Of a DNA stretch of 64,000 bases, positions 4,255 to 16,427 are shown one piece after another. The stretch comes from Halorubrum cibi (GTDB lineage Archaea; Halobacteriota; Halobacteria; Halobacteriales; Haloferacaceae), in contig NZ_FXTD01000012.1 in NCBI RefSeq assembly GCF_900182635.1, forward strand, positions 62,001 to 126,000, in the 5' to 3' direction. The notes beneath the pieces were generated by a model. The model was not told where the DNA came from and did no database searches. It was given only the letters and a program-made list of their open reading frames with translations. The position numbers were made by a program, and so were the translations under genes. Each line of letters starts with the position of its first letter. Within the stretch, counting starts at the first letter, position 1.

Positions 4255-4917
4255 TTACGACTTGCCGAGACTCGCTGTCTCGAAGGGTGATTCTCCGGTC
4301 GGAATGAGCAGGTCTTGTCGGTCTCCGACTCGTTCGGCCAGCTTCCGTTTCAGGTACTGTCTCGCCGTCGACGGCGTGAAGACGCCCTTGTCGAGCATAT
4401 CGCCGACGACGTCTTTGAGGGCCGCAAACTGTCCCTGCAGGTGGCCGTCGCCGACCGGCTCGCCGTCGTACCAGCGCACCGTCGCGAGCGCGCCGTTCCC
4501 GACCGTCTCTCCCTGTTCGACCGTCTCCGAGTCGTACTGGAGCCCGAACCACAGCGTCCGATAGGCGGTCACCTCGAACGTCGTCGACACCACGAAGAAC
4601 GCCTCGTGGTGGAGGTAGTCGAGGTGGTCAGCGACGATCTCGTCGAGGGTGAGCCCGGTGGCGCGGGGTTTCGGCTCGACGACTGTCGACGGTCGATCCT
4701 CGCCAGCGAGGTAGCCGTCGACCGCATCTGCCTCGAGGCCATCGGCCAGTTCCGCCAGCAGCTGTTTCGCCCACTTGGAGTCGGTGTCGTCGCCACCGAA
4801 CGGCGACTCAACCGAGATTCGGTGCTTGAGCTTCAGGTTCGCTGCGCCCCAATGGCTGTAGTGCAGCGTGTACTGTCCGTCCGTGCGTTCGTACGCAACA
4901 AGTGCGCGATGTCCCAT
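4255..4917 (-). CDS. DUF6735-like haloarchaeal protein
   Basis: The N-terminus MGHRALVAYERTDGQYTLHY, followed by SHWGAANLKLK, is the hallmark I associate with the haloarchaeal DUF6735 family, whose function is unknown. About 220 residues, cytosolic, no membrane segment. A middle part (LHHEAFFVVSTTFEVTAYRT) looks like an alpha/beta domain and a basic C-terminal helix (ARQYLKRKLAERVGDRQDL) follows. The gene is preceded by the hairpin promoter element shared with five other genes of the window, which suggests co-regulation with TFB and the SWIM protein. Confidence 0.75.
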   Translation of the reverse strand: MGHRALVAYERTDGQYTLHYSHWGAANLKLKHRISVESPFGGDDTDSKWAKQLLAELADGLEADAVDGYLAGEDRPSTVVEPKPRATGLTLDEIVADHLDYLHHEAFFVVSTTFEVTAYRTLWFGLQYDSETVEQGETVGNGALATVRWYDGEPVGDGHLQGQFAALKDVVGDMLDKGVFTPSTARQYLKRKLAERVGDRQDLLIPTGESPFETASLGKS

Positions 4918-4952
4918 CGAGCAATTACCTCACAGGGCGACCGCGACTGGAT

Positions 4953-4980
4953 CGCCCCGCACCCCTTCCGGGGGACGAAC
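4953..4980 (-). promoter_or_regulatory. shared hairpin promoter element, copy 1 (diverged box)
   Basis: On the minus strand the box reads GTTCGT instead of TTTATC. It is followed by CCCC-GGAA-GGGG and then TGCGGGG. The element lies about 36 nt before the ATG of the DUF6735-like gene. Stem position and the GGGGTGCGGGG string match copies 2 and 3, so it belongs to the family although its TATA-like part is degraded. Confidence 0.6.
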
Positions 4981-4984
4981 AACG

Positions 4985-5365
4985 CTACTCGTCGATCGTG
5001 TCGAGGGAACTGAGGTCCGCGTGGAGGACTTCGCCGTCGCGAACGACGTATCGCTTGGCCAAGACTGGGAAGCGGCACTTGGTGAACCCCGCCGTCTGGA
5101 TATCGAACTCTTCGTCAGCTTCGAGGTGGTCGGCGAGTTCTCGCAGGAATTCGTGGGTCACGATCCCGCCCTCGTAGTCCGGGAGGCCGTTCTCCCGCGT
5201 CTCGTACACTTCGAAGTCGTCGTACCCCCAGATGGTGAGCTCTCCGTCTTCGGTCACCTCCCAGTTGAGCGTCCCGAAGCAGTAGCTCTCACAGAGCTTG
5301 CGGACTGCCTGCGGATCCGATACGATCGCGCCGGTCGACGTCGTCGCAGCTTGCAGTGTCGCCAT
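4985..5365 (-). CDS. hypothetical protein (126 aa)
   Basis: Unrecognised acidic cytosolic protein. Visible features are a Cys-containing helix (KLCESYCFGTLNWEV), a beta-hairpin (GELTIWGYDDFEVYE) and the helix HEFLRELADHLEADEEF, then KCRFPVLAKRYVVRDGEV. The alternation suggests a compact alpha/beta fold. The ATG sits 19 nt downstream of hairpin promoter copy 2. Confidence 0.7.
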   Translation of the reverse strand: MATLQAATTSTGAIVSDPQAVRKLCESYCFGTLNWEVTEDGELTIWGYDDFEVYETRENGLPDYEGGIVTHEFLRELADHLEADEEFDIQTAGFTKCRFPVLAKRYVVRDGEVLHADLSSLDTIDE

Positions 5366-5383
5366 GTCTGGACTTCACGGGGT

Positions 5384-5414
5384 CGCCCCCGCACCCCTGT
5401 CGGGGGCGATAAAC
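5384..5414 (-). promoter_or_regulatory. shared hairpin promoter element, copy 2
   Basis: Minus strand: TTTATCGCCCCCGACAGGGG, then TGCGGGGGCG. The stem is CGC(bulge)CCCC / GGGGGCG around a 4-nt loop. It starts right after the TTTAT box and ends about 19 nt before the ATG of the 126-aa gene. Confidence 0.75.
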
Positions 5415-5456
5415 CAACGTGAGAGCTGCCTCCCGAGGCATGGCCGGCGACGCCAG

Positions 5457-5687
5457 TTAGGAATCAGCGTGCGCGTCCGCCCTGGCTCCGTCGCCCGGCC
5501 GCGTGAGAAGACTCACCTCTTCCAAGAGGTCTCTCGCGGTCTCGACTCGCTCTCGATCCACGTCGTCCAATCGATCGAGGTCGAGTCGGTTGAGATTGCT
5601 GAGTATACGATGCATCCGGTACCCTTGTTTGAACTCTTGCTCCATCGGCAGCGCCTCACCACTCGCCGGCGCAGAAAGACGCCCCAT
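5457..5687 (-). CDS. small hypothetical protein (76 aa)
   Basis: Short and mostly helical. The core NLNRLDLDRLDDVDRERVET followed by ARDLLEEVSLL has heptad-like Leu spacing, consistent with a coiled coil or small dimer. An internal Met (MEQEFKQGYRMHR) could be the true start. Its upstream region holds one of the three long inverted repeats TTAACCAAC...GTTGGTTAA, about 36 bp from the first ATG. Function unknown. Confidence 0.55.
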   Translation of the reverse strand: MGRLSAPASGEALPMEQEFKQGYRMHRILSNLNRLDLDRLDDVDRERVETARDLLEEVSLLTRPGDGARADAHADS

Positions 5688-5722
5688 CGAGACTGGCGTC
5701 GGGCTTGCAGGAATTCGCGGCC

Positions 5723-5764
5723 TTAACCAACGAACCTCGACGATACTCGCAAGCTGTTGGTTAA
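5723..5764. repeat. inverted repeat TTAACCAAC-N24-GTTGGTTAA, copy 1
   Basis: Perfect 9-bp arms separated by 24 bp, in the gap between the 76-aa gene and the zinc-ribbon gene. The same arms with nearly identical spacing recur near 15.1 kb and 31.7 kb. The spacing of arm centres (about three helical turns) suits two bound protein dimers or a looped recombination or partition site better than a simple operator. Confidence 0.7.
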
Positions 5765-5783
5765 TCGATGTCCAGCACTGGCC

Positions 5784-6677
5784 TTACTCGAGACTGGGTC
5801 CGTAGCGAGCTGAGCCACACACCCGGCACTCCCAGATCGGTTGGCCCGTCCACGCCGCATCCGGGACCGACTCGTGAGTCTTGAACCGATGGTCGGTCGC
5901 CCGTTCACAGGTTTGACAGTCGAGTTCCGGAGTCGTCGGTACCGACGACACCTGGCGATCAGCCGCAGCTTCGCCAGTAGATTCGGTCAGCGCTATCGCT
6001 GGAACCAGCCACACCGCATCGTCGGCGTCGTCGAGGACCGCGTCGAGACGCGACGCGTCGCGGATGCCGTCCCCACGCTGGTCGTAGAGCCGCGTCGGGG
6101 CCTGCTCCTGACGCCCCGACGCTTCCTGCCCGTACCACCCAGTCCGGTCATGGGCGACATTGAGAAGCCGCTCTCCCTCCTTTGCCGACATCTGTACCGC
6201 GTCAGGGAGTGCGGGCCATTGTTCAGCCAGCTGGCGCGCCGGCGCCTCGTCGAGGTCGTAGATAAGCGTACAGTCGTCGACGGCCGACTCCGCCTCGTTG
6301 GTGGAGAGGAGGTTCCCCGCGGCGCCGCCCTTCGCGACGGCGCCGTAGAACGTGGTCGACTCGACGACCAGGTGGACGATGCCGAGGCACGTTGTTGACG
6401 CTGTCTCGTCCGTGCTGGTGACGTCACTTTCGAGATGGTTAGTGAGACAGAACCGGCATTTCGTCTGGCCGTCTGGGACTGACGCCCCACAGGACCGGCA
6501 CTCGCCGTCGGTTACCGTCGGCGCATCGGGGTAGCCAACAGTGCTTGTCGCGACACGTTGCCGCCGGGGGGCACCTTCACACCCGTCGTCCAGCCTCGTG
6601 TCCGGAATGTGGGACGCCTCGCCGGTCGGCCGCAGTTCCTCAAAATCAGAATATCGGTTGTGCATCGGTTGGCTCAT
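5784..6677 (-). CDS. zinc-ribbon protein with N- and C-terminal Cys pairs
   Basis: 297 residues. The N-terminal ribbon is CRSCGASVPDGQTKCRFC (Cys60, 63, 74, 77). A second pair set near the C-terminus (CQTCERATDHRF ... WECRVCGSARYG) forms another likely zinc site. Between them is an acidic alpha/beta region. Haloarchaeal proteins with this architecture are, as far as I recall, sometimes labelled biosurfactant protein 1; I cannot confirm that and would not infer function from it. It diverges from the wHTH/DHPDLG module across a 124-bp gap. Confidence 0.7.
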   Translation of the reverse strand: MSQPMHNRYSDFEELRPTGEASHIPDTRLDDGCEGAPRRQRVATSTVGYPDAPTVTDGECRSCGASVPDGQTKCRFCLTNHLESDVTSTDETASTTCLGIVHLVVESTTFYGAVAKGGAAGNLLSTNEAESAVDDCTLIYDLDEAPARQLAEQWPALPDAVQMSAKEGERLLNVAHDRTGWYGQEASGRQEQAPTRLYDQRGDGIRDASRLDAVLDDADDAVWLVPAIALTESTGEAAADRQVSSVPTTPELDCQTCERATDHRFKTHESVPDAAWTGQPIWECRVCGSARYGPSLE

Positions 6678-6801
6678 AGCTTCTGTCGGTATCGCATTTC
6701 AACATCCGGACGCCTTCGCTCGCAACGTACTCTTGATTATACGAGAGGGTACAAACATATATGTGAGTTCAGCGCCAACACTGTCCCAAGAGGTGCCAAG
6801 C

Positions 6802-7353
6802 ATGTCCGAGTCCTCACGAGACGGGGCCCAGTCGTGGACTGAATCGATGAGCGCCCGCGACCGTATTCGAGCGGTCGCCGAGACGCTTCGCGAACCGCGG
6901 TCGGTCAACTGGATTAGCGAACAGGCCGACGCTGCCTGGAGTACGACCAACGAGGAACTCCAGGATCTCATCGACCAGGGCCAGCTGCGCCGCGTCGAGG
7001 CCGGCGAGACCACGCGCTATCAGCCGGACTATACGCGCCTGCTCTTCGAGGAGATCCGTACGCTCATCGAGGAAAACGCGCGCGAGGAGCTACGCAACGA
7101 ATTGGCCGCGATCACCGAGGAGATCGAGGAGTGGCAGGCGACCTACGACGTCGAGACGTGGGAGGAGCTCGAACAGTCACTCGCCGACGGTGATCTCGCA
7201 AGTGCTGAGCTTCGCGAGCGTCGTGACGTCATCGCGTTCTGGCGTGAGAACGAGGAGGATCGCCGCCTCATCAAGCACGCACTAGAACTCTACTCCGACG
7301 TCGAAGCCGCCCGCGAGCAGATGACCGACGTGGCTGACCGCGCCACGAGCTAA
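6802..7353 (+). CDS. winged-helix protein, DUF7342-like (module copy A, gene 1)
   Basis: 183 residues starting at MSESSRDGAQSW. The first 80 residues form a winged helix: SARDRIRAVAETLREPRSVN, then WISEQADAAWSTTNEELQDL, then a wing ending TRYQPDY. The rest is a long acidic coiled coil (EEIRTLIEENAREELRNELA...), as in haloarchaeal DUF7342/TrmB-like proteins. The partner gene starts 17 nt downstream. A clear paralogue (RVRMVARQLSEPQTANWIAS ... TYYPDY) occupies the same relative position at 61.3 kb. It is probably a DNA-binding repressor or antitoxin of the module. Confidence 0.82.
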   Translation: MSESSRDGAQSWTESMSARDRIRAVAETLREPRSVNWISEQADAAWSTTNEELQDLIDQGQLRRVEAGETTRYQPDYTRLLFEEIRTLIEENAREELRNELAAITEEIEEWQATYDVETWEELEQSLADGDLASAELRERRDVIAFWRENEEDRRLIKHALELYSDVEAAREQMTDVADRATS

Positions 7354-7370
7354 TCCTCCTCTCTCACAGA

Positions 7371-7859
7371 ATGATCTTTCTCGCCGGTCGCGACCGCTAT
7401 ACACAGCGGACTCTCCTCCGCGACGTTCACGACCGATTGACGAATCAAGCGGGGTGTGAGGATGTGCGCTATCGCCCGTCTCGACGTCGGCCCCGGTACG
7501 TTATCGGGGATGTCGAGCCGACGACGTTCTTGGGTGACTCTTCCGACGCGGCGACGGCACGACTGGAGATTCGGTTCTGGTACCCCGCTGGCGTCGACCA
7601 CGAATACTACCGCATCAACTGGGTCGAACCGGACCGGAATCTGATGCTGGGCTTTCACCAGGACGCCGATCATCCGGATCTTGGATCCTGTCACATCCAA
7701 CTCAATCACAAAGACGCGTCCGTCGATCGGCATAGCGCGTCGTTTCTCGATGCGCACCCACTTGCCGTCCTCGATGACCGACTCCAGCAGTTGCCGGCGG
7801 CGGTAGAGGCGATTCGCTGGGAGAATGGGATGCCCTCGCTCCCTACTTGGCCCGTCTAG
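7371..7859 (+). CDS. DHPDLG-motif protein, putative toxin-like partner (module copy A, gene 2)
   Basis: 162 residues. The core YYRINWVEPDRNLMLGFHQD followed by ADHPDLGSCHIQLN aligns with WFRINYTDPNTGFHAGWHQD, EDHPDLGRAHFQY in the 60.9-kb paralogue. Shared residues include RIN, DP, HQD and DHPDLG, while flanks diverge. Conserved His and Asp could be catalytic or metal-binding. The size and the pairing with a wHTH gene recall toxin-antitoxin modules such as TumE/TumA, but that similarity is only topological. The stop overlaps the convergent TFB stop by 3 nt. Confidence 0.72.
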   Translation: MIFLAGRDRYTQRTLLRDVHDRLTNQAGCEDVRYRPSRRRPRYVIGDVEPTTFLGDSSDAATARLEIRFWYPAGVDHEYYRINWVEPDRNLMLGFHQDADHPDLGSCHIQLNHKDASVDRHSASFLDAHPLAVLDDRLQQLPAAVEAIRWENGMPSLPTWPV

Positions 7860-8782
7860 ACAGCGAGTTCACCGAGCGTCTCGTGATGCGTCCGGATGGT
7901 TGTTGGCGTGACGTTCCCGGACTCGGCGACATCACGTTGCGTCACCCACTTCCCCTGTTCTTGTCCCGCCTTGTAGAGGCAGGCCGCGGCGAACCCGGCC
8001 GGATGGACGCCCGTCGTGAGACCGCGCTCTTCAGCTTGTTCCGCGAGCGTTCGAGCCCGTTGTCGGATCTCGTCCGGACACTCGAGATCCGACGCGAGTC
8101 GCGGCACGAACATGCTGGGGGCGACGGGCTTGGCAGGGAGCCCCAGCTCTTCGTTCAGCGTTTTGTACGCGTTCGTGACCCGCGACTCCACAACTCGGGC
8201 CAGCTTGCTGATCTCGCCAAGCAGCCGCGAGAGGCCGTTGCACCGGCAGGCCCCGTAGACGCTGGCCGCAGCGATGGCCTCGATTGATCTGCCACGAAGC
8301 AGATTCTCGTTCTGAGCGCTCCGGAAGAGCTGACACGCCTGATCCCGAACCGACTCTGAGAGATCGAGCGCACTCGCAATTCTTCGTACTTCGCCTAGGC
8401 CGTGTGCGAGGTTTCGCTCGGCTTTAGACTGGAACCGACCGCGACGCTGTTCGCGCCGCATTCGGAATAGCTGCTGGTGCTTTTGCCCAGAGAGAGTGTT
8501 TCCGTTCGCATCTTTCCCGCGACCGATCTCCGTCGAGAGGCCTCGGTCATGACGTGCCGCAGTCAGTGGAGCGCCCGTCCGCTTTCGCTCGTGTTGGTCG
8601 TGGGTTCTCCATTCCGGACCGTGATCGATTCGCTGTTCGGCAATAACGAGTCCGCAGTCTTCACAGGTCGTTTCGACCGCGTTGGTAGTGACCCGGCCAT
8701 CGCACTCCGGACATGGGTTCGTGCTGGAGTTTGTCTGGACGTCCTCGTCGAAGCTCGTTTCGTAGATTTCTCTAGTTGCCAT
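7856..8782 (-). CDS. tfb: transcription initiation factor TFIIB (TFB) paralogue
   Basis: 308 residues. The N-terminal zinc ribbon has CPECDGRVTTNAVETTCEDC (Cys24, 27, 40, 43), followed by a B-reader/B-linker region with the usual EWRTHDQHERKRTGAPLT. Two cyclin folds follow (AERNLAHGLGEVRRIASAL ... and PVAPSMFVPRLASDLECPDE...). It binds TBP-promoter complexes and recruits RNA polymerase. The ATG at MATREIYETS is preferred because the 12 residues before it overlap the promoter. Extra plasmid-borne TFBs are common in haloarchaea and can redirect promoter choice. This gene itself carries hairpin promoter copy 3. Confidence 0.95.
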   Translation of the reverse strand: MATREIYETSFDEDVQTNSSTNPCPECDGRVTTNAVETTCEDCGLVIAEQRIDHGPEWRTHDQHERKRTGAPLTAARHDRGLSTEIGRGKDANGNTLSGQKHQQLFRMRREQRRGRFQSKAERNLAHGLGEVRRIASALDLSESVRDQACQLFRSAQNENLLRGRSIEAIAAASVYGACRCNGLSRLLGEISKLARVVESRVTNAYKTLNEELGLPAKPVAPSMFVPRLASDLECPDEIRQRARTLAEQAEERGLTTGVHPAGFAAACLYKAGQEQGKWVTQRDVAESGNVTPTTIRTHHETLGELAV

Positions 8783-8810
8783 CGGTTGTTTGTGAGGTGT
8801 ATTGTCTACA

Positions 8811-8839
8811 CCCCGCACCCCTCTCAGGGGGAGATAAAC
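8811..8839 (-). promoter_or_regulatory. shared hairpin promoter element, copy 3
   Basis: Minus strand: TTTATCTCCCCCTGAGAGGG, then GTGCGGGG. Stem CCCC / GGGG with a 5-nt loop, immediately after the TTTATC box, about 29 nt before the TFB ATG. Confidence 0.75.
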
Positions 8840-8875
8840 AGCCGCGGACGGAGCGGTGTGAGGATGTCTGCTGGG

Positions 8876-9304
8876 CTACTTGGGGAGGTCTCGGCGACCC
8901 GTCCACACGCACTCCCAGCAGGGAAAATCGTTGGACAGCCCATCACAATCGCACTGCGTTGTGTCTACGGTATCTGATTGGTCTCCTTGCCGCTCTCTAT
9001 CCGTTACAACGTCGCTGTCGGTGATAGCTTGTACCTTCTTCACAATGTCTAGAACTTGTGGTCGAATAGCAACGGCAACTCGATGCTTACACGGACCAGC
9101 GTACACTGCGTCAGCGGGACATTCACAAGCTGCTGGAATACCGTCAACAACAGTGACGCGGTATTCATGATCTGCTGGATTTTGATGGCTCTCGTTCCGA
9201 ACACGGATGTCACCATCTAGAAGTGAAAATTCGAAGGCTTCGTACTGAGCGCGTTTGAGTACACGATTCGTTGGTTCGAGACTGTCGAGTAGAGTTATCG
9301 CCAT
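8876..9304 (-). CDS. SWIM zinc-finger protein
   Basis: 142 residues. The SWIM signature CxC-x9-CxH is complete: Cys60, Cys62, Cys72, His74 in CECPADAVYAGPCKH. SWIM domains bind zinc and mediate DNA or protein contact. The C-terminal tail holds a second Cys cluster (CDCDGLSNDFPCWEC) that could bind another metal. Halophilic plasmids and viruses often carry such short SWIM proteins, usually of unknown role. The gene is preceded by hairpin promoter copy 4. Confidence 0.88.
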   Translation of the reverse strand: MAITLLDSLEPTNRVLKRAQYEAFEFSLLDGDIRVRNESHQNPADHEYRVTVVDGIPAACECPADAVYAGPCKHRVAVAIRPQVLDIVKKVQAITDSDVVTDRERQGDQSDTVDTTQCDCDGLSNDFPCWECVWTGRRDLPK

Positions 9305-9321
9305 TATGTACCGCGGCGACA

Positions 9322-9353
9322 GGTGCGCCGCACCCTTCGGTGCGCAGATAAAC
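9322..9353 (-). promoter_or_regulatory. shared hairpin promoter element, copy 4 (compensatory changes)
   Basis: Minus strand: TTTATCTGCGCACCGAAGGG, then TGCGGCGCACC. The stem is CGCACC-GAAG-GGTGCG, six perfect pairs, although the bases differ from the CCCC/GGGG of copies 1-3. Pairing is kept while sequence changes, which argues for a selected structure or dyad. It ends about 20 nt before the ATG of the SWIM gene. Confidence 0.75.
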
Positions 9354-9546
9354 TCCTAGTGACTCACAAGTTGATTTGTTGTCAAGGTTGTGGCTGCGCG
9401 CGCAGCGGAGTTCTCGTGAGCACCGCGAACGAGGGCACGTGAGACGAGCGAATGCGAGTCTCACGGAGCGAGCACGGAGCGGAGGGTGGGGAGGTGGGGC
9501 CTGGGTCGGTCCGGCACGTAGCAAAAAAGAGAGTCGCGACGACTGG

Positions 9547-10443
9547 CTATTCCCACCACCGACCGCGCTCGGGGAACATCACGGTGCTCCACCCAGTGAC
9601 GGCTAGTGAGACGCGTCCTTCGTACCAGTTCCGTGCCGCTCCGTGAATTCGAACGCGCTCGCCTTCTTGGATCCACGGAGCATTTGAGGCCTCCCAGATC
9701 GTTACCCGTGTTTTGCCACTGTCGTCCGCGATCAGCCCAACTTGAGCGATGCTCGGATGGGAGGGATCCCACAATGTCTCGACCTGACCCTCAACACTCA
9801 CCTCTTTGCGATTGACGTCCTCAAGCTTCCCGATGGGAACCACATGTCCCGGCGCTGTCTGTAACTCCTCGAACACCCCCACGACCGCGCTCATCAGGTC
9901 TTTCCCACCGACGACGGCTTCACCCAGCCGCCGACCAATCGCCGCTCGCGACCAGCCATCCAACTTCTCTGCCAGCCGCATCGACTGTGTGTTCACCGCC
10001 GCCAACTGCTCTTGCGTGAGTTCTACACGAGGATCGTCTCTCTCTGGGTCCATCCGCGGGTCCACGCTTGCCGCCCGCTTCTGGAACTTCACACGCCGTT
10101 CAGCACTCCGCTTCGCCGCGACATTTCGCGTCCGCTTTGCGCGCCCCTCCTGCTGACTGAGCTCCGCCTGAGCACTGATGCGTTCCAGTTCAGCCTCCCG
10201 CGCTCGAATGCGCTCTTCCTGTTCGAGGGTCTTTCCGAACATGTGATCCGGGCCTTCCTCGACGCGCGCGTCTGGGTGGTTAGAATCGACTTTCGCCTGT
10301 ACCTCCATCTGTACCGTTGCCCGGAACTCCGGCGTCTCATCGACGACCTCGAAGCCATCTTCATCGACTTCCGCTTCGTCCGCGTTTTCGAATCCTTGTT
10401 CATCGACCGAAACTACTTGACTGGTAACGTTCTTACTTGACAT
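9547..10443 (-). CDS. OB-fold single-strand DNA-binding (RPA/SSB-like) protein
   Basis: 298 residues. The C-terminal 100 residues are an OB fold: LEDVNRKEVSVEGQVETLWD, IAQVGLIADDSGKTRVTIWE, IQEGERVRIHGAARNWYEGR. This is the RPA-like pattern. The N-terminal half is acidic, then a charged helical region (GKTLEQEERIRAREAELERI). This architecture fits the haloarchaeal plasmid SSB-like proteins. It may protect single strands during plasmid replication or transfer. An 8-bp perfect stem (CCGCGATG / CATCGCGG) lies 38 bp upstream of the ATG. Confidence 0.82.
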   Translation of the reverse strand: MSSKNVTSQVVSVDEQGFENADEAEVDEDGFEVVDETPEFRATVQMEVQAKVDSNHPDARVEEGPDHMFGKTLEQEERIRAREAELERISAQAELSQQEGRAKRTRNVAAKRSAERRVKFQKRAASVDPRMDPERDDPRVELTQEQLAAVNTQSMRLAEKLDGWSRAAIGRRLGEAVVGGKDLMSAVVGVFEELQTAPGHVVPIGKLEDVNRKEVSVEGQVETLWDPSHPSIAQVGLIADDSGKTRVTIWEASNAPWIQEGERVRIHGAARNWYEGRVSLAVTGWSTVMFPERGRWWE

Positions 10444-10536
10444 TGGATCTCACTGATCCGAAGGCGCTCAGCGCCCGACACCGCGATGCTCCACCATCGC
10501 GGTTCTTCGACGACAACGCCCGACAGAACCATCTAC

Positions 10537-10586
10537 GCGCTCTCGCTCGCGCCTTCGCGAGCGCCCTTGGGCGCGAGCGAGAGCGC
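10537..10586. repeat. perfect 16-bp inverted repeat with 18-bp spacer
   Basis: GCGCTCTCGCTCGCGC at the left is matched exactly by GCGCGAGCGAGAGCGC at the right. The spacer itself contains CGCGAGCGCCC, related to the arms. This is the longest perfect dyad I saw in the gene-free region. Confidence 0.75.
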
Positions 10587-11121
10587 CGAAGGAAGGTCAC
10601 TCAACCAGCACCGCGCGCCGACCCGCCCGGAGCAAGCGTCCAGCGGAGTAAGCGTGAGGGGTGAGCAGCTACGCCGCGCAACCCCTCGGGCTTACCCGCT
10701 GGCGTCGAGGGCACATTTACTTTAGCCCGGAACGGGCGCTCGCGGTGCTGAGAGCGGCCGCATGCCCGGAATGGTCGGTCGCGAGCGACGCGGAGGGCGG
10801 TAGCGGCGAGCGGGGCGCGCCGTAGAGAAACACCCGGCCATCCGATTGTACTGCTGAACGAATGAACCACCCCTGGCGGACTGTAAGGGCGAGGTCGCTC
10901 GGCCAATCCCCGACTCCGTAAGCACCGCAGGCACGAGGAGCGCAGCGTGGGTCGCGGGATGCCGAGCGGCCGAGGGCTTTCTATTCGTTCTCGGCCACCA
11001 CTAACCGTCTCGACGGAAGCATTATCGTGCACCGTCACGAACAATATAGTATGCACCACACACCCCCGGTGCAACGGGTGAACGTGCGGACGATGAGCGG
11101 TTGCTCTGTTCTTTCGTAGTT

Positions 11122-11175
11122 GGTAGCGGCGCCGGCGGGTGTATCGCCTTCTCATCGAGCAGCGACGCCGCTACC
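11122..11175 (+). repeat. 10-bp perfect dyad in the leader of the aRF1 gene
   Basis: GGTAGCGGCG and CGCCGCTACC are separated by 34 nt, and the right arm ends 10 nt before the aRF1 ATG. If transcribed from the TATA-like AATATAGTATG near 11043, it would form a stable 5' leader stem that could mask the start site. It could equally be a DNA operator. Confidence 0.6.
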
Positions 11176-11185
11176 ACCGAAACAA

Positions 11186-12262
11186 ATGCAGACCACCGAG
11201 TACGAACTCCGCGATCGAATCGACCAGCTCACAAACTACCGTGGCGAGGGCACCGAGCTCATCACCGTGGCCGTCCCGCCAGACAAATCACTCCATGCGG
11301 TCCGTGAGCGCATTGACCGCGAATATGCACAGGCTGCGAACATCAAATCCGATCAGACACGAACTCACGTCCAGGACGCTCTCGGACGTATCCGACGCCT
11401 CCTCCAAGCGTACGAAGAGACACCACCAAGCGGCCTTGTCATCTACGCTGGTGTCGTCGACAGTGAGCTGCAGGATGCCGTCTTCGACGATCTCGACGTC
11501 CCCGTCGATGTCTCGCTGTACCGCTGTGCGGCTGAATTCGAGACTGCCCCTGTCGAGCAGGCGCTCACCCCGTCAGAGGTGTACGGTCTGGTCATCCTCG
11601 AACGGGGCCGTGCCGCCCTCGGTCGCCTCGCCGGCGAACGCATCGTTTCCAGTCGGACCTTCGAGAGCCAAGTGATGGGAAAATCCCGTGCTGGCGGTCA
11701 GAGTGCGCAGCGATTCGAACGCGAGCGAGACCGCCAGAAACACGAGTTCTTCGAGCAGGTCGCCGACGCTGCCGAGCAGACGTTCCTCGATGAGCCCACT
11801 GTCGATGGCGTCATCCTCGGCGGGACGACGATCACCGTCGACGAGTTCCAGCAGGGTGACTATCTCCACCACGAGTTGCGGGACCACATACTAGGTGTCT
11901 ATCCGATTGAGTACGCAACCAAGCAGGGTCTCTCGCAGCTCGTTGAGCGCGCTGACGACGTACTGTCTGATGTTGAGCGCCGACGGGAACGGGAAGCCCT
12001 CGATCGGTTCTTCACGGCGCTGGGACAGGGTGGAGATGTCGCCTACGGAGCTGATGAAACGCAAACCGCCCTCGAGTATGGAGCAGTCGACGTCCTTCTC
12101 GTTTCTGACGGACGGCCACCAGCGGAGATTCGTGAGCTGGAGGAAGTGACGACCGACCAAGGCGGTGAGTGTCTCGTTGTGTCGACTGACACCGATCGAG
12201 GTGCCCAGTTCGATACTGCATTCGGAGGCCTTGGAGCGCTCCTCCGGTTCCGTATTAACTAA
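11186..12262 (+). CDS. aRF1-type peptide chain release factor paralogue, short form
   Basis: 358 residues starting at MQTTEYELRD. All release-factor motifs are present: NIKS (52-55) and YxCxxxF (YRCAAEF, from Tyr112) for stop-codon reading, and the catalytic GGQ (170-172, in KSRAGGQSAQRFERER) for peptidyl-tRNA hydrolysis. Typical haloarchaeal aRF1 is about 415 residues. Here domain 3 lacks the Cys-containing minidomain and runs from EYGAVDVLLVSD to a short C-terminus. It could be a working second release factor or a stalled-ribosome rescue factor. Placement on a mobile backbone and the leader dyad are unusual. Confidence 0.9.
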   Translation: MQTTEYELRDRIDQLTNYRGEGTELITVAVPPDKSLHAVRERIDREYAQAANIKSDQTRTHVQDALGRIRRLLQAYEETPPSGLVIYAGVVDSELQDAVFDDLDVPVDVSLYRCAAEFETAPVEQALTPSEVYGLVILERGRAALGRLAGERIVSSRTFESQVMGKSRAGGQSAQRFERERDRQKHEFFEQVADAAEQTFLDEPTVDGVILGGTTITVDEFQQGDYLHHELRDHILGVYPIEYATKQGLSQLVERADDVLSDVERRREREALDRFFTALGQGGDVAYGADETQTALEYGAVDVLLVSDGRPPAEIRELEEVTTDQGGECLVVSTDTDRGAQFDTAFGGLGALLRFRIN

Positions 12263-12407
12263 GCCGAGTTGTTTTGGACGCCATAGCTGTTCTAGCGTCC
12301 CAGTGTACGGGTTTGGAGGCAGTCATCGGTCGCATGAACAAGCTCGATCGGCGTAAACCGGGCGGGTGCGGTGTCGCTCTTGGAGACACGAATCGCTCAC
12401 ACCGATC

Positions 12408-12737
12408 TCAGCCGTCGTCCTGTGCGTTCAGTTCTGTCAGGAACTGGCCGGCTGCCGTCCCGATACGAACACCGTCGACGGTACGTACTGCAAGGTCGTG
12501 CGTGGCAGTCCGAAAGGGGTAGTGGTCGACGAGGATGCGACGGATGACGGTTCGGACGGGGTCGGTCCCGTATCTGTCGACGACAGTAGCCATCATCTCG
12601 TCGAGATGCGCGTCCCGGTGCTCCGTCCGGGGATGCTGTGCGCGTTCGAGCACGAGTTCGACTACATCGTCAACTGATGTGTGCTCGGGATTCTTGGTTC
12701 GTTCACGAACGTCGTAGAGAGCGTCGTTACCGGGCAT
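12408..12737 (-). CDS. small hypothetical protein (109 aa)
   Basis: Unrecognised. Mostly helical, with the repeated-looking segments SVDDVVELVLERAQHPRTEH and DEMMATVVDRYGTDPVRTVI. No cysteine or membrane segment. It lies 31 bp downstream of the PIN-domain gene on the same strand, so it may be the last gene of the toxin-antitoxin transcript. Confidence 0.6.
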   Translation of the reverse strand: MPGNDALYDVRERTKNPEHTSVDDVVELVLERAQHPRTEHRDAHLDEMMATVVDRYGTDPVRTVIRRILVDHYPFRTATHDLAVRTVDGVRIGTAAGQFLTELNAQDDG

Positions 12738-12768
12738 TCCTGTTCACTTCGAAGTATCCTTTACGGTG

Positions 12769-13281
12769 TCAGGGCTCCTTGAGCAATGAGCGAGCTCGCT
12801 GCACGTAACTGTTCGCGCCCCAGCTACGGGCGTTGCTAATCTCATCGAGGAGCAGCCGCGCATCGGCAGCTGATAGGTGTTCGGTTCGAACGAGAACCGA
12901 GAGTAGCGTCGGTGTCGTGACGAGTCGGGTATCAGCGAGTGAGGCGTGGATCAAGCCAAGTTGGTTGAACTCGTCACAGAGGAAGAGCGCAGCATCGAGT
13001 TCGTTCGCGAGCGTGACCGCCGCGTTCTCACCATCATCGAGGGGGAACTCGGCATCGAGGTCGACCGACTGTGTCGTGAATGACTCTGCTTGGTCGAGTA
13101 CGGCGGACGCGGCGTGTCCATGGACGTCATCGTAGGAGGCGATCTCTTGGAGTTCATCGATGACCGCTGTTGGGACGACGACCTCGTACCGGGAGAGACA
13201 GAGTGCGAGTGGATCGGGATCGTCGTCAGTAACGATCCCGAGACTCACGAGGGCGGAGGCGTCTGCGATAAGCCGCGACAT
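12769..13281 (-). CDS. PIN-domain nuclease, VapC-like toxin
   Basis: 170 residues. The PIN acidic set is visible: Asp7 (LIADASALVSLG), Glu43 (VIDELQEI), Glu85 (DDGENAAVTLANE) and Asp103 (LCDEFNQLG). These residues coordinate Mg or Mn for RNA cleavage in VapC-type toxins. The start codon abuts the stop of the ribbon-helix-helix gene, so the pair is translationally coupled. The C-terminal extension after LLSVLVRTEHLS is longer than in short VapCs. Confidence 0.87.
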   Translation of the reverse strand: MSRLIADASALVSLGIVTDDDPDPLALCLSRYEVVVPTAVIDELQEIASYDDVHGHAASAVLDQAESFTTQSVDLDAEFPLDDGENAAVTLANELDAALFLCDEFNQLGLIHASLADTRLVTTPTLLSVLVRTEHLSAADARLLLDEISNARSWGANSYVQRARSLLKEP

Positions 13282-13584
13282 CTATGCGTCGGCGACCTCG
13301 TCGATGAAGTCTTCGTCTAACTGCTGTTTCAACACTCGGAGGTTTGCTGCCTCCTCGGCGCCGACGAGTGCTTTGAGTTGATCGAAGGTGATCTCGTCGT
13401 CGTAATAGGCGGCGGCGATCTCTTGGGTGAGTGCGTCGTCGTGAGCGGCGTCTTGGAGGTACTCTCGAAGCGCGGTCACGAGGACGTCTGTTCGGTCTTC
13501 CCCGAGGACTGCGGCCAGTGCGTCGGCGCGGTCGATGAGCCGATTGGGGGCCCGAAACTGCACGCGCTTCTTATCGGTGCTCAT
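13282..13584 (-). CDS. ribbon-helix-helix antitoxin-like protein
   Basis: 100 residues from MSTDKKRVQFRAPNRLIDRA. The strand KRVQFRAPNRLIDRADALA followed by EDRTDVLVTALREYLQDA is a typical ribbon-helix-helix DNA-binding unit. The C-terminal part (EITFDQLKALVGAEEAANLR) should wrap the PIN toxin. Upstream lies ATGATGTGTACAATGTGAGC, with TGTACA as a possible operator core, and GTATGATGTGAGCC repeated about 35 bp further. Autoregulation is likely by family analogy. Confidence 0.85.
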   Translation of the reverse strand: MSTDKKRVQFRAPNRLIDRADALAAVLGEDRTDVLVTALREYLQDAAHDDALTQEIAAAYYDDEITFDQLKALVGAEEAANLRVLKQQLDEDFIDEVADA

Positions 13585-13655
13585 GATGTGTACAATGTGA
13601 GCCAACGCACTTAGCCGTTTTCGTGTGTATGATGTGAGCCTCACTCGGCCGACCG

Positions 13656-13982
13656 TCACTCGGCCACGAGATGCTCCTTGAGATCACGTGTCCAGTACGT
13701 TGCGAGCCCCCCTGGACTACAGTGCTCGCACAGTTGCAACGGGCCTTCGAGATGCCCCAGTTCCACTCGGAACCGCGTCAGCGCTGCAAGCGCGTCGACG
13801 ACGAGTCCACACCCGTCGCAGGCGTAGTGATCGCGCTCGTCGGGATTCGGCCCCGACTGGATCGCACAGTCGACGCAGATGGGGTGAGTAACCCGATCAT
13901 CCTGACCCCACGTATGCGCCTCGCCAGCCTCGGCGCCGGGCGGAGTGTCGCAGAATGCACACCCCGTGAGCGTCTGCTGCAT
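13656..13982 (-). CDS. small multi-zinc-ribbon protein (108 aa)
   Basis: Contains three or four Cys pairs: CAFCDTPPG, CVDCAIQSG, CDGCGLVVD and CEHCSPGG, sufficient for two zinc sites. It overlaps the stop of the upstream 96-aa gene by one base (TAATG), so the two are coupled. It ends with a basic or amphipathic tail (YWTRDLKEHLVAE). Probably a nucleic-acid-binding or adaptor protein; family name not known to me. Confidence 0.72.
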   Translation of the reverse strand: MQQTLTGCAFCDTPPGAEAGEAHTWGQDDRVTHPICVDCAIQSGPNPDERDHYACDGCGLVVDALAALTRFRVELGHLEGPLQLCEHCSPGGLATYWTRDLKEHLVAE

Positions 13983-14272
13983 TACTCGGCCTCCTCGTCG
14001 GCATCGCAGGCGGCCGTCCAGCCACGGTGGAAGACGGCTAGCTGCGTCGGTGAGTCGAACGCAGTATCACTCGGTTCGTGAACGAGAACGCGGTCCTCGG
14101 GAACTGGAGTGACGACGTCCGCGTCGAGGAGCTCGTTGATCTGGCTCTGGGCCGTCGTGTCGTCAATGTCCGCCGTGTTGACGCCGTTGACGTCGCGGTC
14201 CTGTGCGAGGAGCTCAGTTTCGAACTGTTCATAGTCGGCACTCGTGTCGTCATGTGGATCGGGATCATCCAT
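13982..14272 (-). CDS. acidic hypothetical protein (96 aa)
   Basis: Very acidic (MDDPDPHDDTSADYEQFETE at the start) with a short helical centre (TAQSQINELLDADVVTPVPE) and an ending FHRGWTAACDADEEAE. First gene of a two-gene unit with the zinc-ribbon protein. Preceded by hairpin promoter copy 5. Function unknown. Confidence 0.68.
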   Translation of the reverse strand: MDDPDPHDDTSADYEQFETELLAQDRDVNGVNTADIDDTTAQSQINELLDADVVTPVPEDRVLVHEPSDTAFDSPTQLAVFHRGWTAACDADEEAE

Positions 14273-14300
14273 GGTGAATCACGCTGCGCACGTTGTCGCG

Positions 14301-14328
14301 CGCTGCACGCCTTCTGGCGCAGATAAAC
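14301..14328 (-). promoter_or_regulatory. shared hairpin promoter element, copy 5 (compensatory changes)
   Basis: Minus strand: TTTATCTGCGCCAGAAGGCG, then TGCAGCG. The central stem is CGCC / GGCG rather than CCCC / GGGG, again preserving pairing, with an outer CTG / CAG. It ends about 29 nt before the ATG of the 96-aa gene. Confidence 0.7.
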
Positions 14329-14497
14329 ACTCCACGCGAGACCGCGGCCCTTACTCACTCCGAGGGATCGTAATCCGGTTTTCGATTCCGCCGACAACAA
14401 GCGTCAGCACGTCGTGATGGTCGGTTAACCACGAGGCGTCGTCACTGGATAGCAAAGTGGTCGTCAATAGCTACGGAGCCGCTGAGAGCCTGTTGAC

Positions 14498-14689
14498 TCA
14501 CCCGTCTTCGAGCGCGGCGTAGATCTCCGCATGGCGGCGTCCGTCAAGTTCCCCCATCTCGAGGGCGATCTGGTGGCGTTCAGCGTCGCTCTCGGCCGCC
14601 TGATACTGCTCGTACAGTCGGCGGACTTCTTCATCGACCGTCGCCGAGGAATCGGTGCTGGACGCCATCTCTGTATCGAACGTACTCAT
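14498..14689 (-). CDS. short helical protein (63 aa)
   Basis: Acidic and almost entirely helical (VDEEVRRLYEQYQAAESDAE, RHQIALEMGELDGRRHAEIY). Coupled to the upstream winged-helix gene by an ATGA overlap. Small partner proteins of this kind often bind the preceding DNA-binding protein, but no family is recognised. Confidence 0.65.
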   Translation of the reverse strand: MSTFDTEMASSTDSSATVDEEVRRLYEQYQAAESDAERHQIALEMGELDGRRHAEIYAALEDG

Positions 14690-14985
14690 TGTGTCCCTTT
14701 ATCAGTGGCGACGAGCTGGTTGATGCGTCGCCACTCGAAGTACGCGTTGTTGCGCTCGTAGGTGGCCGGATGGCCGTCATGGCGTATGACGATGCCGAGT
14801 TCTCCGAACCAGCTGAGGTATTTCCGGGCTGTCTTCGGGTCACACTCTGCTCGTTCGGCGATCGCGCTTGCCGTCGTCGGCTCCCGGGTCTGCAGGATGG
14901 TGCCGTAGATGCGTAGTTCGACGTCGTCCTCGCTAAATTGGTCCTCGAAAGAAGGGGGACCGTCCGTGGACGCTGTGTCGGGCAT
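14686..14985 (-). CDS. short winged-helix protein (99 aa)
   Basis: A winged helix spans most of the length: DDVELRIYGTILQTREPTTA, SAIAERAECDPKTARKYLSW, then a wing DGHPATYERN. The run YERNNAYFEWRRINQLV is typical of haloarchaeal DUF7342/TrmB-like proteins, which normally continue into a coiled coil of another 80-100 residues. Here the stop comes right after the wing helix. It may be a naturally short regulator or a truncated relative of the two longer wHTH proteins in the window. Confidence 0.75.
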   Translation of the reverse strand: MPDTASTDGPPSFEDQFSEDDVELRIYGTILQTREPTTASAIAERAECDPKTARKYLSWFGELGIVIRHDGHPATYERNNAYFEWRRINQLVATDKGTQ

Positions 14986-15091
14986 ACGTATTCTTGCGGG
15001 GCTACGAATATCGTTCTTACTTCGAGGAAGAGTTCCCCGTCAAGTGAGGCGTACTGGGTGCCGCCTGGTTGGCTTCGAATGGAGCACGATA

Positions 15092-15132
15092 TTAACCAAC
15101 ACTAGACCCGATCCCAGGAGGTTGTTGGTTAA
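15092..15132. repeat. inverted repeat TTAACCAAC-N23-GTTGGTTAA, copy 2
   Basis: Perfect 9-bp arms 23 bp apart, between the short wHTH gene (about 107 bp upstream of its start) and the 146-aa gene. Same arms as near 5.7 kb and, with one change, 31.7 kb. Confidence 0.7.
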
Positions 15133-15143
15133 CTCAGGTTCGG

Positions 15144-15584
15144 TCAGCGCATCTGGAGCTTTCGAGCCGGTTTGACGCTGAACGTATCTGGGTTGTTGAC
15201 TGGCACGTCGTGACTGCGATCAGTTGCCTGGGACGACGGCCGAGTGAGCCGGGTGATGAGATCCTCACGAACAGCCCGCCGACTGACCGTGGACTCGTGC
15301 CACCCAAGTCGTTCATAGTAGTGCCGTTTCCGGAACATCTCGCCGTTGTCGTCGATGGGGATGAACTGCGTTCGCTTCGCTCCCCATACGTTCGTAGAGA
15401 CGTACTCCGCACCAACCTCTTCGTGGGTAAGTTCCACGAGGACACACTCGACGAATGAGACGATTGAGAGCTGACTTCTCTCGTTGGGAACCGTCAGTTC
15501 GAGATCCGCCCACGGCGCATCGCTTGATTGTTCTATCTGTTCGCTACGTAGCCGCGATTGCTGTCGCTCGTGTTCTGAAGACAT
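15144..15584 (-). CDS. hypothetical protein (146 aa)
   Basis: Unrecognised. A central beta-rich block (SQLSIVSFVECVLVELTHEE, VWGAKRTQFIPIDDNGEMFR) is followed by a basic helix with a Ser/Thr-Arg run (GWHESTVSRRAVREDLITRL) that could be a DNA-binding helix-turn-helix. Last member of the hairpin-promoter gene set (copy 6). Confidence 0.65.
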   Translation of the reverse strand: MSSEHERQQSRLRSEQIEQSSDAPWADLELTVPNERSQLSIVSFVECVLVELTHEEVGAEYVSTNVWGAKRTQFIPIDDNGEMFRKRHYYERLGWHESTVSRRAVREDLITRLTRPSSQATDRSHDVPVNNPDTFSVKPARKLQMR

Positions 15585-16427
15585 CGTAGTTCAGTGGGCG
15601 CTCACTGCGCCCCTCACCCCTCTTGGGGGTGAGAAAATCCACCGCGAATCGCGTCACCATTCAATGAGTGTCTTCTGATATGTTTGCTATAGACATTCGT
15701 CGTTTGCTGGCCCCTCGGCCAGAGAGAGCCAGCGGCGTTTGTACCAGTGTACCCTAGCCTTCCTTTGGAATATTTTGGAGGTGCAAAGGGTATCAAAACA
15801 GCCTCAGATTCAACAATAGGTCCGTCGGGCTGTTTTTAGGCGGTGGAACTGTCCTCGACGAACTTCAAACTCGGCTTTCCGGGGTAATTGTGCTTGACGA
15901 GGTGTTGAGGGCCTCGAATTCGAAGGAATCAGTATCACATATTCGCCGCACTCGCCGCCGACGAATCTCAGCAGCTAACGATGGTTAGCTTCGACTCGTG
16001 GAAAATTCACCCCTTATCGGTCGAATATTGGGGATGTAAGCTCTAAAAAGTGCGTGACGGAGATTCTTAACTCCCCGGACAACCTCTCCGATAGAAATAT
16101 CAAAACGATGGTGGTTCTCTCATAGGCGCCGAAAAAAGAATCGCCGGATTAGCTAGTTCAAGACAACGGCCAGTTCTCCTTGAGGTTCATTTTTGGTTAG
16201 TCTGAGAAGCTCGCGTTCAGGACCGGCGAAGAGTGAATTGCAGGTTTTACTCGATCCGCTTCTATCTCGGTCATTGGATTTCTGGATCTGTATCTAGAGT
16301 ATGATAATAGTAGGAGGCAGATCTGTCTCTCGGAGTCTATCTCCTCGAACTATACCCACAAGTAAGCCAGCATTTGGATAATGTATGTGAATAATAACTA
16401 TTGGCACACGTGTTCTATCTACTGGTC
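15585..16427. other. 843-bp gene-poor, AT-richer region
   Basis: Apart from hairpin copy 6 at its left edge I find no intact gene. A 7-bp dyad AGCTAAC-GATG-GTTAGCT lies at 15973-15990. On the minus strand a short open frame reads GPQHLVKHNYPGKPSLKFVE then DSSTA and a stop (about 15838-15920). It looks protein-like and could be the 3' remnant of a decayed gene, but is closed upstream by a stop. Composition is lower in GC than the flanks, suggesting decayed or transferred DNA. Confidence 0.45.
15609..15638 (-). promoter_or_regulatory. shared hairpin promoter element, copy 6
   Basis: Minus strand: TTTTCTCACCCCCAAGAGGG, then GTGAGGGGCGC. A perfect 8-bp stem CTCACCCC / GGGGTGAG with a 5-nt loop, the best stem of the set. 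The A that is bulged in copies 1-3 is paired here with T. It ends about 25 nt before the ATG. Confidence 0.75.

Follow-up and report, generated by a model that had tools for sequence, protein, structure and literature searches.

A hairpin-bearing cassette repeated upstream of unrelated genes on haloarchaeal plasmids, proposed as a promoter module

The window analysed here, a stretch of 64,000 nucleotides (nt) that forms part of a 126,508-bp contig in the 3.18-Mb genome of Halorubrum cibi, contains six copies of a short cassette, each located upstream of a different gene. The cassette has a constant anatomy, consisting of a T-rich box, a first hairpin (HP1), the trinucleotide TG[CA], a second hairpin (HP2) and the start codon; it is conserved and associated with genes across haloarchaea, and it carries an RNA-type signature downstream of TG[CA]. 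These observations support a real multi-gene promoter family of haloarchaeal plasmids. Here it is proposed, with a probability of about 0.55, that the cassette is a self-contained plasmid promoter module in which HP1 would act as a DNA dyad, transcription would start just after TG[CA] and the mRNA would open with HP2.

All six copies that the original prediction had placed on the minus strand with a shared arrangement were recovered, and in each of them the order is box, perfect HP1, TG[CA] and then ATG. The box reads TTTATC in four copies, TTGTTC in the copy at 4.98 kb and TTTTCTC in that at 15.6 kb. The same prediction held that stem bases change between copies in a compensatory manner; the six HP1 stems do pair perfectly, while the compensatory part of the claim is weak, the HP1 changes being few and lineage-bound. 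HP2, which was absent from that prediction, can form between TG[CA] and the start codon in every window copy. In the list below, R1 is a covariance model trained on 13 copies, five of them from this contig, and those five match by construction.

4962..4982, minus strand: copy 1, box TTGTTC and HP1 CCCC-GGAA-GGGG (from the sequence; R1 27.9 bits)
4935..4957, minus strand: copy 1, HP2 GGGCGA/TCGCCC (read from the sequence; family fold)
4255..4917, minus strand: DUF6735 gene, 220 aa (Pfam PF20509, 3.8e-85)
5394..5413, minus strand: copy 2, box TTTATC and HP1 CCCC-GACA-GGGG (R1 44.6 bits; training-set member)
5379..5390, minus strand: copy 2, HP2 GGGG-GCGA-CCCC (sequence; family fold)
4985..5365, minus strand: 126-aa gene, without Pfam match
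8818..8838, minus strand: copy 3, box TTTATC and HP1 CCCCT-GAG-AGGGG (R1 36.3 bits)
8796..8812, minus strand: copy 3, HP2 GGTGTA-GACAA-TACACC (sequence; family fold)
7856..8785, minus strand: TFB gene, TFIIB repeats and zinc ribbon (Pfam PF00382, 1.5e-35; PF08271, 2.9e-12)
9329..9352, minus strand: copy 4, box TTTATC and HP1 CGCACC-GAAG-GGTGCG (R1 only 16.7 bits, E 0.18)
9313..9331, minus strand: copy 4, possible HP2 GCGGCG/CGCCGC (read from the sequence)
8876..9304, minus strand: SWIM zinc-finger gene, 142 aa (Pfam PF04434, 9.5e-8)
14308..14327, minus strand: copy 5, box TTTATC and HP1 CGCC-AGAA-GGCG (R1 36.6 bits; training-set member)
14286..14303, minus strand: copy 5, HP2 GCGCGCG/CGTGCGC with one G.T (single-sequence fold; family fold)
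13982..14272, minus strand: 96-aa gene, without Pfam match
15613..15637, minus strand: copy 6, box TTTTCTC overlapping HP1 CTCACCCC-CAAGA-GGGGTGAG (R1 39.6 bits; training-set member)
15596..15612, minus strand: copy 6, HP2 GGGCGC-AGTGA-GCGCCC (sequence; family fold)
15144..15584, minus strand: 146-aa gene, without Pfam match

The possible HP2 of copy 4 overlaps the 3' arm of its HP1, and the minimum-energy fold of this copy is a different one. On the whole contig, R1 returned 12 matches at E up to 1, all on the minus strand, with E-values from 1.4e-7 to 0.18 for the six window copies; the contig carries at least 12 cassettes, six of which lie outside the window, and an open reading frame (ORF) follows each of the 12 (12/12). 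Those behind the first six are the DUF6735, 126-aa, TFB, SWIM, 96-aa and 146-aa genes listed above, and those behind the other six encode an HNH protein of 161 aa, proteins of 92 and 139 aa, a DUF6610 protein of 333 aa and proteins of 116 and 308 aa. The 308-aa protein has weak ArdC/M78 matches under the Pfam cut-offs, and its relatives are annotated as ImmA/IrrE or ArdC-like. A relaxed detector run over 596 kb of plasmid contigs gave 32 matches vs 7 on the reversed sequence.

Two further stretches of the window resemble the cassette. At 5688-5735 on the minus strand, a degenerate relative (TCTTTC box, GCGCC...GGCGC) precedes a 76-aa ORF (5457-5687) that sits just upstream of the 126-aa gene, and a similar stretch is present on a Halorussus plasmid and on pNG600; it is possibly a 13th copy. 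At 60-102, also on the minus strand, TTTTTTTGAGCGCCGG...CCGGCGC is a possible divergent copy located 86 nt ahead of a 163-aa ORF and absent from the R1 matches.

The cassette is widespread in haloarchaea. At E 0.01, R1 found it in 137/292 genomes of the class and in 49/77 genera, with up to 11 copies per genome, in a search run under stricter filters that may miss weak copies. The comparison outside haloarchaea used an exact pattern (TTTATC, CCCC, GGGG and TGCGGGG with short gaps) rather than R1, scanned over 84,980 species; it gave 66 stretches, 60 of them haloarchaeal and from many genera, and the other six bacterial (five Spirochaetia, one Bacteroidia). Viral origin was rejected, the exact pattern having 0 matches in viral contigs. 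Some part of a 5.2-kb stretch of the gene block is matched by 185 plasmid records. The plasmid pNRC200 of Halobacterium salinarum NRC-1 has one R1 match, at 308358-308389 on the minus strand and ahead of the TFB gene VNG_RS11900, and the 312-kb Halorussus plasmid NZ_CP100403 (G298:C3), which is partly duplicated, has 15, all in one direction (15/15). Co-orientation is not universal, with one weak match reversed in G292:C4 and mixed directions on the long contigs G160:C1, G067:C1 and G064:C1. The five Spirochaetia loci (L046, L054, L072, L078, L099) have in common a longer TTTATCTTTGCCCCC...GGGGGTGCGGGGG form that is not followed by any consistent gene and is probably an unrelated bacterial hairpin repeat.

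As on the Halorubrum contig, the cassette is tied to gene starts elsewhere. Among the 61 exact haloarchaeal matches, from which the six bacterial stretches are excluded, 50 have an ORF of at least 50 aa beginning with ATG or GTG 36-75 nt after the box, compared with 750/2400 random positions in the same loci; the remaining 11 lack an ORF of at least 50 aa at the expected place. Run over all of the collected sequence, the relaxed detector gave 319 unique elements, 261 of them with an ATG-initiated ORF of at least 55 aa located 15-62 nt after TG, in counts that take in adjacent boxes at a single site, loci that overlap and the loci of the six bacterial stretches. The proteins downstream of the 261 form 26 clusters, led by TFB (57), DUF6735 (31), the 126-aa protein (26) and SWIM (24), followed by the 96-aa (22), ArdC-like (16) and DUF6610 (15) proteins. 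The presence of a TFB gene among the members, a point of the earlier claim, is borne out in the largest downstream cluster.

When genes were instead located by protein homology in the collected loci, the cassette was present in 218/247 upstream regions from 11 families; most of these loci had been collected through the element itself, and the SWIM and 96-aa counts are nearly free of this bias. In these two families, fetched by protein alone apart from a few regions that still come from element-fetched loci, the cassette precedes 30/34 SWIM and 26/28 96-aa genes. Homologues of the 96-aa protein occur in 117/292 genomes of the class. TFB genes have the element in 42/48 upstream regions, many of them from loci fetched through the element. 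For the 146-aa family the detector found it in 6/17 regions; most copies there read TGG, not TG[CA], and none was added by hand.

Visual inspection of 16 divergent gene pairs from four plasmids gave 10 with a clear cassette, 2 with a degenerate one and 4 with none. In the 10 clear cases the intergenic region is 117-221 nt long, without an annotated co-directional gene that could supply a transcript, and the location of cassettes in such short divergent regions supports a self-contained promoter. Copy 1, whose box starts 2 nt past the stop codon of the 126-aa gene, and four copies of the Halorussus plasmid lie 2-45 nt past the stop codon of a co-directional gene. In some DUF6735 genes (L060, L093, L104), a TTTATC box and flank of the 126-aa type are joined to the gene's own HP2, as if recombination between two cassettes had deleted the 126-aa gene; cassettes may be recombination points.

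Strong conservation in a set of 132 non-redundant regions is limited to six blocks, which run from the T-rich box through a C-run, an A/G-rich loop and a G-run to TG[CA] and a second G-run. None was found at a fixed distance further upstream, where there is a weak C at -9 and a weak G at -1/-2. The commonest boxes (n=150) are TTTATC (26), TTTTTC (20), TTTTTT (14) and TTTTAT (13), and in 85/150 the first T of the box lies 20 or 21 nt from the T of TG. A B recognition element (BRE) of the CGAAA type at -14 to -4 matches at four of five positions in 9% of the 132 regions vs 8% in shuffles.

The arms of HP1 are CCCC/GGGG in 106 of 138 detector matches with an ORF, extensions of CCCC/GGGG in 18 and other stems in 14 (CGCC/GGCG 6, CCCT/AGGG 4, CTCC/GGAG 2, CCCA/TGGG 2), a count that is biased towards CCCC by the use of a CCCC pattern to fetch many of the loci and that recounts sites with overlapping boxes. 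The detector run behind this count also covered the loci of the six bacterial stretches. The pair-keeping changes (CGCC/GGCG, GCACC/GGTGC, CCCA/TGGG, CTCC/GGAG) each occur in a single gene family or in no more than a few sequences, and all six CGCC/GGCG stems precede orthologues of one gene. In a test anchored without using the element's own pairing, all 4 bp of HP1 pair in 66% of 135 segments (null 12%), and its mismatches include 4 G.T and 15 A.C. The HP1 segment has no strand difference in folding (sense lower in 45/94, p=0.43), and among its 4-nt loops the GNRA type is in excess (24/87 vs 12% expected from composition) and the complementary type is missing (0). HP1 has no clear RNA signature.

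HP2 is different in this respect. Consensus folding recovers it in all eight families tried, and the minimum free energy (MFE) of their alignments lies at z -1.9 to -5.5 relative to column shuffles; out of 100 shuffles, the MFE is reached by 0 for SWIM, TFB, ArdC, the 126-aa and the 146-aa families, 1 for DUF6735, 4 for the 96-aa family and 5 for DUF6610. Its sequence varies far more than that of HP1 while still pairing. A set of 218 elements was selected by box, HP1 and TG without regard to HP2. Scored on Watson-Crick pairs alone, the best 6-bp helix of HP2 is fully formed in 52 of them (null 2.9%) and at least 5/6 paired in 171 (null 35%). The 162 mismatches in 137 unique arm pairs comprise 86 G.T and 10 A.C, compared with 14% and 18% in shuffled leaders; G.T occurs in 11/11 families and A.C in five. 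G.T and A.C are the same mismatch seen from opposite strands, so a dyad read in double-stranded DNA would treat both alike, whereas structure in sense RNA prefers G.U and a hairpin on the template strand prefers A.C; the G.T excess of HP2 is thus an RNA-type signature.

Folding of the two strands agrees with this signature. The segment from TG[CA] to ATG is more stable in sense than in antisense in 80/104 non-redundant segments (p=6.7e-9, mononucleotide shuffles), and the 45 nt upstream of the box have a slight opposite bias (sense lower in 65/145, p=0.0074). With dinucleotide shuffles, the stretch from box to ATG has z -1.84 in sense and -1.28 in antisense (72/111, p=1e-5) vs -0.24/-0.23 in the upstream controls, and nine of 11 families agree with the bias, the exceptions being the 116-aa and 161-aa families. 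The median distance from the end of HP2 to the ATG is 11 nt, and some leaders carry a Shine-Dalgarno-like GGTGA after it.

The position at which the RNA signature begins bears on where transcription would start. When 42 strict HP2 cores were extended outward, 20 G.T and 1 A.C were found at offsets 4-7 from the T of TG[CA] and 11 G.T and 15 A.C at offsets 2-3; the signature seems to set in immediately downstream of TG[CA], some 23-25 nt past the first T of the box. For the intergenic repeats of halovirus HF2, whose starts were obtained by primer extension, a TATA motif beginning at -26 is deduced, with -24 and -28 also regarded as appropriate elsewhere in the HF2 genome (PMC8707807). This spacing, combined with the 20-21-nt distance from box to TG, would place the start at TG[CA] or immediately behind it, and the two lines converge on one position.

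In the proposed module, the T-rich box would be the TATA box, with its first T near -24, and HP1 would be a DNA dyad spanning roughly -16 to -4, its A-rich loop falling on -10, and a common plasmid factor would use it as an operator or as a special element of the core promoter. A protein on HP1 would block melting, or a plasmid-specific initiation complex would read the promoter there. Transcription would start in the G-run right after TG[CA], giving leaders of about 23-41 nt (family medians) with HP2 at the extreme 5' end of the mRNA. Since the sequence of HP2 is free to vary as long as it pairs, it fits a generic 5'-terminal hairpin, which might protect the message or tune translation. The original prediction had located the dyad between a TATA-like box and the expected start, a position that agrees with the start inferred here, and had offered an operator or a leader hairpin as alternatives; the data suggest both, in separate places, with HP1 lacking a clear RNA signature and HP2 having a strong one. 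As the TFB gene itself carries the module, feedback is plausible for this candidate regulon, whose direction of control and binding factor are inferred only; a plasmid-specific TFB regulon with feedback is conceivable, and the missing CGAAA BRE is merely compatible with it. The shared cassette suggests that haloarchaeal plasmids run these genes as one coordinated set.

Several points weigh against this proposal. The sequences within each family are related, so the counts are not independent events, and the statistics ignore kinship. The start site is deduced from sequence in every copy, and the boundary test behind it is partly built in, offset 2 usually being a C that is unable to give G.T. 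The region from -12 to +2 is very GC-rich and lacks a CGAAA BRE, unlike the standard haloarchaeal promoter. For HP1, mismatch types differ by method, with alignment-based columns leaning to G.T and the anchored test to A.C; its stem is almost always perfect G:C, hence the sense/antisense comparison has little power there.

Two other points, namely that TG[CA] itself takes part in pairing at the base of HP2 more often than under the null, which leaves room for a start a few nt earlier, and that counted from the box G.T already outnumbers A.C by 31 vs 1 at 22-24 nt, which fits a slightly earlier start, also favour a different arrangement. There, the whole cassette including the box would be an RNA leader or intercistronic element recognised by an Lsm-type or other RNA-binding protein, and the promoters would lie elsewhere upstream. 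The RNA-like HP2, the many boxes that are plain T-runs (TTTTTC and TTTTTT, 34 of 150 against 26 TTTATC), the copies close behind co-directional stop codons and the excess of GNRA loops in HP1 are all in line with such a leader. We consider it unlikely, as no promoter-like element is present at a consistent upstream place, cassettes occupy short divergent intergenic regions and HP1 has no G.T preference in the anchored test. It is distinctly less probable that HP1 is not an operator, its C-run, A-rich loop and G-run being the base preferences of a core promoter read by a specialised TFB and RNA polymerase. The conservation of CCCC/GGGG far beyond the needs of pairing (a count with the fetch bias noted above), the fact that the HP1 loop would fall on the -10 (WW) position given the proposed start and the missing CGAAA BRE, as expected with a dedicated plasmid TFB, speak for this alternative, and the copies without CCCC that still pair (CGCC/GGCG, GCACC/GGTGC, CCCA/TGGG) speak against it.

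The mostly single direction of the copies (12/12 on this contig; 15/15 on the partly duplicated Halorussus plasmid) and the ArdC-like antirestriction proteins among the regulon genes, so named by annotation and under the Pfam cut-off, would also be expected of a single-stranded DNA (ssDNA) element active in plasmid transfer, for example an ssDNA promoter that drives genes of the leading region. Known promoters of this kind use the transferred strand as template. A structure on the template strand would favour A.C on the coding strand, the opposite of what HP2 shows; in addition, HP2 ends close to the ATG, at the median distance given above, and the co-orientation also follows from a syntenic backbone and has exceptions. 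An ssDNA promoter of the Frpo type was rejected for its wrong strand signature, and the wider ssDNA reading is highly improbable.

Covariation in the strict sense gave a mixed result. In 17 of 24 non-redundant SWIM leaders, chosen by eye for similar layout and aligned plainly, HP1 and HP2 together pair in 80.7% of cells vs 37-61% in slid versions; the covariation score of HP1 and HP2 is not above shuffles (134/500 reach it), which likewise counts against the proposed module. The part of the significant covariation expected by the prediction thus falls to the G.T/A.C test and to pairing across unrelated HP2 sequences, and not to column covariation. An apparent C-G to A-T swap at TFB columns 29:51 was left unused, since inspection of the rows traced it to two TFB subfamilies being misaligned.

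In the same 17 leaders, a pairing between the 5' arm of HP1 and the 5' arm of HP2 (A:B) is above shuffles (reached by 0/500 on paired cells and 1/500 on score). In a set of 28 SWIM leaders, fully paired A:B 6-mers make up 32% vs 2%. Over all families its mismatches are 14% G.T against a null of 10% and 22% A.C against 18%. A:B was rejected as a long-range RNA switch, the pairing being in excess but without a clear G.T preference, and it looks like a DNA-level inverted repeat. A two-level cassette, in which the G-rich arm B would be common to a DNA dyad A:B and an RNA hairpin B:C (C being the ATG-side arm), is a doubtful extension of the proposed module. If true, a plasmid-encoded factor could control a dozen unrelated genes at both the transcription start and the mRNA leader, with the plasmid TFB in the loop, as an archaeal plasmid-wide operating system.

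The plasmids also carry a second interspersed element, an inverted repeat of 39-41 bp with the form TTAACCAAC-N20-23-GTTGGTTA(A), at the following positions:

5723-5763 and 15092-15131 of the window: TTAACCAAC repeat
37738, 41352, 44718 and 50538 of the contig: TTAACCAAC repeat
308492 of pNRC200: TTAACCAAC repeat

There are 6 of these repeats on this contig and 22 on the Halorussus plasmid NZ_CP100403. On the latter, the repeat begins about 60 nt before a cassette at 116317, 180833, 305031 and the duplicate 39238, and at least the first three of these sites precede DUF6610 genes. It looks like a partition or regulator site, and a text search for its letters gave no haloarchaeal paper among the matches listed. 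Between about 17-45 kb and 283-311 kb of NZ_CP100403.1, cassettes and TTAACCAAC repeats recur at a constant offset of 265.8 kb, which suggests that the record includes a large direct duplication.

Haloarchaea commonly carry megaplasmids with large numbers of genes, and many backbone genes on them lack a name; no mention of DUF6735, DUF6610 or DUF7558 was found in the literature searched. Present in 137/292 genomes, the cassette groups about a dozen families into a regulon on the evidence of DNA alone and offers a shared entry point to them. The abundance of TFBs in haloarchaeal genomes is a long-standing question, and a plasmid TFB gene that shares its promoter with its presumed targets makes one answer directly testable. 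If the proposed module is correct, the mRNAs of these genes would have a leader with a hairpin at the 5' terminus, an unusual case for archaea, in a clade whose mapped transcripts mostly lack leaders.

No prior description of the cassette was found in Rfam or in the literature searched, which was partly aimed at other questions and included few subscription journals, in agreement with the earlier claim that no element of this form had been described; Rfam 15 gave 0 matches at the gathering threshold in the window and 0 at E 0.5 in the copy-bearing loci L266 and L204. Among known systems, bacterial mRNAs have 5'-terminal stabilising hairpins, such as that of the ompA type, and HP2 would be a similar generic, sequence-variable 5'-end hairpin; unlike these, it is joined to a conserved promoter and recurs upstream of a dozen unrelated archaeal plasmid genes. 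The Frpo/ssi-type ssDNA promoters of bacterial conjugative plasmids are one-strand hairpins located before antirestriction-type genes, mostly in one direction. The hairpins of the cassette are also on one strand before antirestriction-type genes; they differ in that the coding strand bears the structure signature and that the hairpin leaves out the box.

The standard haloarchaeal promoter has a CGAAA BRE, a TTWT TATA box and WW at -10, and 72% of the start sites of protein-coding genes in Haloferax volcanii are leaderless (PMC4983044). The box of the cassette fits TTWT, its spacing fits 24-28 nt if the start is just after TG[CA], and A-rich bases are present near -10; unlike the standard promoter, the cassette lacks CGAAA, has a GC dyad flanking -10 and would be leadered, with a hairpin at the 5' end of the mRNA.

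The closest comparison is with the class I and II intergenic repeats of HF2, which are described as promoters with a TATA-like motif, in one main direction and with element-encoded control suspected, having lengths of 58 or 29 bp, mapped starts and a sequence-conserved core, TCTTTAAGTC in class I and CCCTTTAC in class II (PMC8707807). As with these, the cassette is a short repeat between genes of a haloarchaeal mobile element, placed upstream of the genes and oriented with them. In contrast, neither TCTTTAAGTC nor CCCTTTAC is present in the base profile of the 132 cassette regions, the accessible portion of the HF2 source mentions no CCCC/GGGG dyad or 5'-terminal hairpin (PMC8707807), and the cassette is found in 49/77 genera of the class while the HF2 repeats are found in one virus genus. 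The cassette would function like the HF2 promoter repeats but is not of the HF2 type by sequence, and the features that go beyond that precedent, as far as the available description extends, are the GC dyad between TATA and the proposed start and the probable 5'-terminal RNA hairpin.

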